35,598 bases of DNA from Chloroflexota bacterium. GTDB lineage: Bacteria; Chloroflexota; Dehalococcoidia; Lucifugimonadales; UBA1127. Position numbers and translations under genes: made by a program. The notes under the pieces were generated by a model, which worked only from the letters and a program-made list of their open reading frames with translations, had not been told where the DNA came from and did not search any database. Shown piece by piece: positions 8,718-9,977 of the stretch (position 1 is its first letter; each line of letters begins with the position of its first letter). The stretch spans positions 1 through 35,598 of the forward strand of contig JAPONS010000012.1 in NCBI GenBank assembly GCA_026713825.1. The letters are read 5' to 3'.

Positions 8718-9977
8718 CTAGCACGCGTACGAGATGTGTCCCGGGTACTGTGAGTCCTCGGCATTGCGGTACCAGCAGTCGTAGGAGTTGTAGGCTTCCA
8801 GATAACGCTGATACGCCTGATTCAACGTGTTGTAGGCGGCATCCGAATATACCGTACATATGCCGATATTTCGATGGCAACCGTGGGCCTGCCGCAGGTC
8901 TTGATAGGCGTCTCTGGCGGTGACGTAGGTAGACTTGGCGGCGTTCACGTTGTTTCGGAGGGTGGCGTTAGCCGGTCTGGTGTTCTTGTGGACTTCGATG
9001 ATGTAGCCGTTTACGGCGGTGTGGGGGACCCAGCAGCCGTCGGGGCCGCTGTTGGCGTCGCCCTGCGGCCAATAGAAGTGGACGCCGCCGCTCACCTTGA
9101 TGTCCATCACCCGATGCGCGGTGTTGCTGTTACTTGGCTCATCACTCCAGCAAGCGCGGCTCTGAAAGCTGATGGTTGCGCCGATGACGATGTTCTCCGG
9201 CTGAAAGTCGTGAAGCCACGTGGCTGTGTCCAGGCAGGTCAACTTCGGCTCCATGCTACCAGTGCAAAGAAGCCCGAGGACCCTCTCCGATTGCTGAGAG
9301 AGAATGAGGGGCCTCCGCCGCTCCTCCAGCTGGGCGATCTCTGTGCGGAGGTTGCCCGCCTGCGTCTCCAGCGTCTCGACGGTGCCAGCGGCTTTGGTCA
9401 AGGCGGTGTGTTCCGCATCCAAGCCGGCGTACCGGGTGTTGAGGGTCTGATGGGACACCTGCAACTCCTCATAGGACCCCTGTAATTCCTGGTGGGAGCC
9501 TTGCAGTGTCTGGTGGGACGCTTGCAGGTCCTGATGGACGACTTGCAACGCTTCATGCCGGGCCCCAAGTTGCCGGTTGGCGTCCGCTAGTTGCTCGTGG
9601 GCACTCTTCAAATGGTCGTACTCTTGCGTCAGTACGGTCTTCTCGTGCGCCAAGGTGCGGTTCTCCTCCGAGAGTTCATGCACTTCGATACGCAACCCGT
9701 CCCGTTCCGTTCCGACTTGAGCCAAACCCCTGGCGAGGGCGTCGCGCTCCGCAACCAGTGCGTTCCGCTGCTTGGCGAGAGTATCGAAGTCGGCAGCCAA
9801 GGCGTTGTGCGTCTCGATGCTGGCCACGAGGTCAGTATTGGACTGCACGAGGGCGCTCCGGGTTTCGCGCAGATCGACGTTGGCCTGGTCGAGTTCCCGG
9901 AACAGGTAGCCGGCGGTGAAGCCGAGGAACAGCAGCACGGCGAGGGCGGCGGCAGCAGGGATGGGGATGCGTCTCAT
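8718..9977 (-). CDS. Membrane-anchored coiled-coil protein with ER/archaeal-type signal peptidase domain
   Basis: 419 aa. CAGGAG lies 8 nt before the ATG. Architecture: a transmembrane anchor (8-27); a long Gln/His/Glu/Leu coiled coil (about 28-225) with seven exact heptads starting at Leu144, 151, 158, 165, 172, 179 and 186 (LQASHQT, LQGSHQE, LQGSYEE, LQVSHQT); a catalytic-looking domain (about 230-330); and a Tyr/Cys-rich helical tail. The catalytic domain follows S26B signal peptidase order: GSMEP with nucleophile Ser241, VIGATISFQ (the VGDIV strand), AHRV with His288, QGDAN at 305-309, Asp313, then VPHTAVNGYIIEV. A Ser-His-Asp set rather than Ser-Lys makes it ER/archaeal-like. Eight cysteines suggest extracytoplasmic disulfides. 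Substrate unknown; it may process or only bind proteins. Confidence 0.75.
   Translation of the reverse strand: MRRIPIPAAAALAVLLFLGFTAGYLFRELDQANVDLRETRSALVQSNTDLVASIETHNALAADFDTLAKQRNALVAERDALARGLAQVGTERDGLRIEVHELSEENRTLAHEKTVLTQEYDHLKSAHEQLADANRQLGARHEALQVVHQDLQASHQTLQGSHQELQGSYEELQVSHQTLNTRYAGLDAEHTALTKAAGTVETLETQAGNLRTEIAQLEERRRPLILSQQSERVLGLLCTGSMEPKLTCLDTATWLHDFQPENIVIGATISFQSRACWSDEPSNSNTAHRVMDIKVSGGVHFYWPQGDANSGPDGCWVPHTAVNGYIIEVHKNTRPANATLRNNVNAAKSTYVTARDAYQDLRQAHGCHRNIGICTVYSDAAYNTLNQAYQRYLEAYNSYDCWYRNAEDSQYPGHISYAC

Follow-up and report, generated by a model that had tools for sequence, protein, structure and literature searches.

A gene on the minus strand of the window, the whole 35,598-nucleotide stretch of DNA analysed here, encodes a protein of 419 residues in which a Sec11/SipW-like catalytic core, assigned to the S26B peptidases, is separated from its N-terminal membrane anchor by a long coiled-coil stalk. 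The gene is complete (8718..9977, ATG at 9977, stop codon ending at 8718); the coordinates agree with those of an earlier sequence-only reading of this DNA, and the minus strand is a correction to it. With moderate confidence, we interpret the protein as an active, membrane-tethered endopeptidase held approximately 29 nm out, at the height of the S-layer, where it would cut surface proteins.

The reading frame is preceded by AGGAG about 10 bases 5' of its ATG and stands alone, convergent with folD. Another genome of the same genus carries an ortholog (L009) in a conserved gene order, with folD, rpsO, pnp, a cobO-like gene, and genes for a Rieske protein and HtrA common to both loci, and over the core the two differ by a dN of 0.20 and a dS of 1.86, a pattern of purifying selection. 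The residues named in the sequence-only reading were all recovered at their positions, namely C238-TGSMEP with Ser241, VIGATISF, AHRV with His288, QGDAN with Asp307, and Asp313, as were the eight cysteines (238, 248, 276, 315, 367, 374, 401 and 419). A viral origin of the gene was considered and rejected, since a comparison with PHROG gave no match and viral contigs contained no relative. Matches to HALZ, SMC and other models in whole-protein Pfam and NCBIfam scans were likewise discarded as compositional products of the coiled coil.

The catalytic core spans residues 231-330 (8988..9287, minus strand) and was recognised by both profile and fold matches. The serine, Ser241 (9255..9257, minus; SEC11A Ser56), the histidine, His288 (9114..9116, minus; SEC11A His96), and both acidic residues, Asp307 and Asp313 (9039..9059, minus; SEC11A Asp116 and Asp122), are invariant in 28/28 relatives, among which the core as a whole is only about 45-50% identical; loss of Ser241 and His288 in orthologues, which would have spoken against a peptidase, was thus not seen, and this conservation argues for catalytic activity. 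The only family matches of the core are to TIGR02228 and SipW, which places it with the Sec11, archaeal and SipW enzymes rather than with LepB, as had been proposed. These matches are weak for the window protein itself, which scores 33.4 bits against the TIGR02228 cut-off of 51.85 and 14 bits against the cut-off of 190 for the SipW model NF046067, and the TIGR02228 cut-off is passed by a close relative (L018, 52.3) and by the short C25 paralogue (56.5). No Pfam family matched the stalked core, that of LepB (PF10502) included, and a histidine occupies the general-base position in place of the lysine of a Ser-Lys pair. When a profile built from 23 cores was compared with all PDB sequences it retrieved human SEC11C (E 4e-10) and SEC11A (E 6e-9), in alignments that superpose the serine, the histidine, the GD motif and the last aspartate. 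The SEC11A numbering used here follows the published SEC11A segment, which agrees with the stretch aligned in this search.

In an AlphaFold model made with 19 relatives, residues 7-220 make up a helix, residues 231-330 a beta domain and residues 335-408 a helical hairpin. The beta domain is predicted to have the S26 fold, the absence of which would have counted against the sequence-only reading, and VIA-align gave Z scores for the whole model of 10.4 to SipA, 9.0 to SpsB, 8.4 to SEC11A and 8.2 to LepB, and for the core predicted without the stalk of 9.4 to SipA, 8.1 to SEC11A, 8.1 to SpsB and 7.5 to LepB. S24 relatives score equally with the S26 structures in this comparison. Foldseek on its own returned no match below E 0.001, so the predicted fold is based on VIA-align in combination with the sequence profile, and the family assignment chiefly on sequence. 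Within the core, the loop bearing the serine is modelled with the least certainty (pLDDT 50-60). Beyond the core, residues 335-419 (8721..8975, minus) form a predicted helical hairpin (335-364 and 379-408) and a tail that ends in cysteine; the hairpin replaces the C-terminal membrane segment of Sec11 and matches generic helical hairpins only.

The membrane anchor (residues 4-22; 9912..9968, minus) was confirmed, with a mean hydropathy of 2.13, a positive N-terminus and a predicted helix beginning at residue 7. Its net charge is +3 before and -1 after the hydrophobic segment, which corresponds to an N-in/C-out topology, and the N-terminus is more positive than the 20 residues following the anchor in 17/17 stalked proteins. 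This charge topology, along with the resemblance of some relatives to lipoproteins, supports the extracytoplasmic location that had been proposed from the cysteines.

The stalk (residues 28-220; 9318..9896, minus) is a predicted helix with leucine heptads. Fifteen consecutive leucines fall at seven-residue spacing between residues 95 and 193, a run reached by 0/20,000 shuffled sequences, and leucine fills 19 of the 27 possible positions in one register (shuffle mean 6.5), so the heptad periodicity exceeds chance, as expected of a coiled coil. The coiled coil is longer than in the sequence-only reading, which gave about 200 residues with seven exact heptads. At the DNA level a repeat of 21-bp period lies within the stalk (9489-9547). 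In the single-chain model residues 7-220 form one unbroken helix, mostly with pLDDT around 90, in agreement with the suggestion of a rod that holds the domain off the membrane; as a straight helix it would place the core approximately 29 nm from the anchor, although a long helix predicted by AlphaFold for a single chain is no proof of an extended rod. The a positions are mostly His, Asn and Tyr in the window protein, and Asn, Arg, Ile, His and Val across the family. Leucine at d with asparagine at a is usual in parallel dimers, and for this reason we infer that the stalk pairs as a dimer. Between residues 99 and 209 (window 9350-9680, minus) the inward-facing a positions are rich in His and Tyr, as they are in the L009 ortholog, and could possibly make the stalk sensitive to pH or metal. 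The stalk is the least conserved part of the protein, with a pairwise identity of 0.205 versus 0.496 in the core. Between two syntenic copies (L002 and L010), synonymous divergence is higher in the stalk (0.68) than in the core (0.25), as if the stalk had been exchanged or converted separately.

Between stalk and core lies a neck, LEERRRPLIL (residues 217-226; 9300..9329, minus), which stood out by its conservation. Its mean pairwise identity of 0.553 exceeds that of the core, and it is predicted to be disordered, with pLDDT under 50. The motif, LExxR[RK]PLIL across the family, accompanies the coiled-coil stalk; it is absent from L028 and L075, which have Pro/Thr stalks, from the coiled-coil group L063-L065 and from L027, all of which retain intact catalytic residues. 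Because it tracks the coiled coil and is missing from the Pro/Thr-stalk forms and L063-L065, we read it as what may be a cap or dimer contact.

Two cysteines mark the subfamily. Cys238, three residues before the catalytic serine (9264..9266, minus), and Cys248, seven residues after it (9234..9236, minus), are each present in 28/28 members of the clade and in 0/24 ordinary relatives, the latter being SipW-like proteins of the same phylum. The pair probably forms a disulfide; VKOR was looked for as an oxidant and not found. In the core-domain tree a single branch, with support of 93/81 and present in 97% of bootstrap trees, sets the two-cysteine proteins apart, and the term clade assumes that the root lies among the ordinary relatives. 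The stalked S26 gene of L018 (7239-8618), on a contig filed as Acidimicrobiaceae (Actinomycetota), falls inside a Chloroflexota group with support of 100/100, so that either the gene was transferred horizontally or the contig was misbinned.

The Ser-His-Asp triad and the S1/S3 pockets of Sec11A have been described, with Val52 lining both pockets (PMC13385932). At the position equivalent to Val52, 24/24 ordinary relatives carry Val or Ile; in the main stalked group 2/22 have Val there, and the remaining 20/22 have Leu, Ala, Thr, Lys, Gln, Arg or Tyr. Elsewhere in the groove of the stalked proteins Met57 is kept, Phe61 appears as Leu or Ile, and the Val84 equivalent, like that of Val52, is not conserved. 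With the triad invariant and Val52 changed, catalysis appears to have been held constant as the substrate contacts changed.

The spacer between anchor and core is also free to vary, from 11 to about 290 residues across the clade, with the catalytic residues kept throughout. Coiled-coil spacers measure 107-272 aa, those of L028 and L075 are Pro/Thr-rich, and the short C25 protein (122 aa) has a spacer of 11 residues. L028 sits inside the coiled-coil group on the core tree (83/87), on a long branch. Anchoring varies as well, being by a single helix, by several helices (L016) or apparently by lipid (L024, L028 and L075). Since the length varies and two spacers are Pro/Thr-rich, the spacer itself seems to be needed and not its sequence, which suggests that it serves to set a distance and not to bind a specific partner. 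More tentatively, and as a proposal that we consider somewhat less probable than not, this two-cysteine clade of Sec11-type proteins may have given up the removal of signal peptides and turned into a group of enzymes that process surface proteins; placed at defined heights on exchangeable stalks, they would mature surface fibres or the S-layer in Chloroflexota that lack a wall.

The genome (2.64 Mb, 96% complete) holds five stalked proteins, that of the window (C12) and paralogues on C81, C7, C25 and C47. Other genomes of the genus carry three (G002), two (G001) or, in two cases, none, and two-cysteine proteins occur in about 11 of 394 genomes of the class. A search for a separate LepB, suggested by the sequence-only reading, found a single copy (G000:C21, 152 bits to PF10502), and there is one short membrane-proximal Sec11-like protein (L006, C25), encoded 0.5 kb from a stalked gene. 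In L103 (5588-12029) LRR lipoprotein genes, some of them interrupted by stops, form a tandem cluster after the genome's only LepB gene. No PF00905 transpeptidase was detected in the genome, a family matched in 10/10 control bacteria, and the single match to the Mur-ligase family could be folC. SAR202 bacteria that have been cultivated belong to the same class; they are monoderm, have no peptidoglycan genes and bear an S-layer-like coat (PMC10444878). Given a wall-less, S-layer-like envelope of this kind, a 29-nm rod would reach into or past the S-layer.

In the mechanism we propose, the N-terminus would remain in the cytoplasm with the anchor spanning the membrane, and the helix that follows would pair with that of a second copy, giving a rod about 29 nm long. 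The tip of this rod would carry the S26B domain, working by a Ser-His-Asp mechanism as in Sec11 and SipW. LepB and the short Sec11-like protein would take care of signal peptides, and the head, level with the S-layer or beyond it, would cut extended segments that surface proteins or S-layer-associated proteins leave exposed, with paralogues of unlike stalk length and pocket serving several substrates. In Sec11A the h-region of the signal peptide lies between TM1 and the C-terminal helix, and Trp36 of TM1, twenty residues before the serine, acts as a gatekeeper (PMC13385932). The window protein has no transmembrane helix directly before its core, 218 residues separating the anchor from Ser241, and no membrane segment within 200 residues of the serine, and it ends in a predicted soluble hairpin. 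With the flanking transmembrane segments absent, this architecture cannot provide the membrane-embedded substrate window of Sec11A, and as the pocket is re-worked too, signal-peptide removal is unlikely. The stalked enzyme therefore most likely no longer removes signal peptides, and extended segments of surface proteins are its likely substrates. Of the earlier suggestion of a dedicated processing enzyme on a rod, the rod is supported, as a prediction; a role in the processing of signal peptides is not supported, in view of the sub-threshold TIGR02228 score and the missing Sec11A window.

Other functions have to be weighed against this one. The protein could be a true signal peptidase whose coil bends back, lies along the membrane or recruits a partner in order to serve particular exported proteins, as SipW serves TasA. 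Its nearest family models are signal peptidases, the Met57 and Phe61 (as Leu/Ile) positions of the S1 pocket are retained, and the short membrane-proximal form lies close to a stalked gene; however, the unbroken heptads of residues 95-193 and the single predicted helix leave no hinge, the spacer is highly variable in length and sometimes Pro/Thr-rich, no transmembrane segment stands beside or after the core as it does in Sec11A (PMC13385932), and the Val52 equivalent is lost, so that we regard this as unlikely. Still less probable is a self-cleaving surface fibre, an idea of the sequence-only reading, in which the head would cut its own or a neighbour's neck (residues 217-229) and be shed, in the manner of LexA-like domains. 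LexA, UmuD and CI share the fold, small residues (Ser, Ala or Thr) often follow the neck, and the neck is conserved like the core (0.553 versus 0.496) though predicted to be disordered. Yet the proteins without the neck keep their catalytic residues, so its conservation tracks the coiled coil and not catalysis, and it may merely cap the coil. It also lies about 15-24 residues before the serine, compared with about 35 for the LexA self-cleavage site.

It is similarly improbable that the domain is a non-proteolytic chaperone or structural head for surface fibres, like the pilus protein SipA of streptococci. SipA is the best fold match, whether the stalk is included or not (Z 10.4 and 9.4), but this rank is not meaningful as the Z scores of all S26 and S24 structures differ by about 1-2, and all four catalytic positions are invariant in 28 sequences. 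We give equally little weight to a general degradative exoenzyme that would supply the cell with peptides instead of maturing proteins. Several paralogues with divergent pockets would suit such a role, and for STABLE, the protease bound to the Staphylothermus stalk, a part in feeding peptide fermentation has been proposed (PMC5744192). Against it, the precedent in family S26 is of narrow specificity, and ordinary secreted proteases could do the same work without a rod.

The search for substrates encoded near homologues, suggested by the sequence-only reading, gave none that is consistently adjacent: the window locus has none and the neighbours of the paralogues differ. An all-against-all comparison of neighbours at 22 loci recovered orthologous synteny only (window and L009, C81 and L010, L014 and L015) and no shared partner, and a dedicated operon substrate was accordingly rejected. 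A few members (G000:C81, G399 and G008) have as neighbours surface proteins with LRR, FN3 or SWM repeats, which offer a weak lead to substrates; the LRR neighbours were dismissed as substrates, since LRR lipoproteins occur at about ten places in the genome and a single adjacency is near chance. Secreted proteins adjoining stalked S26 genes in L020 (8725-12016) and L097 (8179-10053) share a stretch immediately after the signal peptide (DEFTAPIVLKEGRTPPEV and SDFNLPFLLEQGRPAPVF, respectively), a possible recognition or sorting signal. Beside the C81 paralogue are a terminase-like gene and small genes, a phage or gene-transfer-agent remnant (L035 5906-8843; L010 3559-6401), in the same order in G002. 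In L068 (G243:C4) an ordinary SipW-like peptidase appears to be fused in-frame to a surface-protein region and a LysM-like end.

Signal peptidases are textbook membrane-surface enzymes. If the favoured reading is true, catalytic residues have been kept in a domain moved 13-38 nm off the membrane, and the fold would be able to serve as a general maturase of surface proteins. It would also give a handle on how the surface is built in peptidoglycan-less, S-layer-bearing Dehalococcoidia, which make up a large share of the deep-ocean community. Furthermore, the stalked clade offers natural variants with which to separate the contributions of the membrane window and of the pocket to Sec11 specificity.

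No description of a stalked S26 protein was found in the open-access literature searched. Sec11 and the archaeal type I signal peptidases (TIGR02228, MEROPS S26B) share the core fold, the GSMEP-HRV-GD-D order and the Ser-His-Asp positions; the stalked protein has a coiled coil of about 200 residues inserted between its anchor and its core and two extra cysteines around the serine, has an altered S1/S3 pocket and lacks the C-terminal membrane helix. LepB of the same genome belongs to the same superfamily and matches PF10502 at 152 bits, whereas the stalked core has no Pfam match. SipW (NF046067), which processes TasA and TapA in Bacillus, is likewise a bacterial S26B enzyme of Ser-His type, but it is membrane-proximal with TasA adjacent, and the stalked protein has no TasA-like neighbour and a weak score to the SipW model. 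SipA of Streptococcus pyogenes (PDB 4n31) also places an S26-fold domain outside the membrane. It is a pilus-assembly factor without a working catalytic pair, unlike the stalked proteins, in which the catalytic residues are invariant. The nearest functional analogy, which implies no kinship, is STABLE on the tetrabrachion of Staphylothermus marinus, a protease that a long coiled-coil stalk carries at the level of the S-layer in an organism without peptidoglycan (PMC5744192); there a separate subtilisin rides on a 70-nm tetrameric undecad stalk, whereas the stalked S26 protein combines head and heptad coil in one polypeptide.
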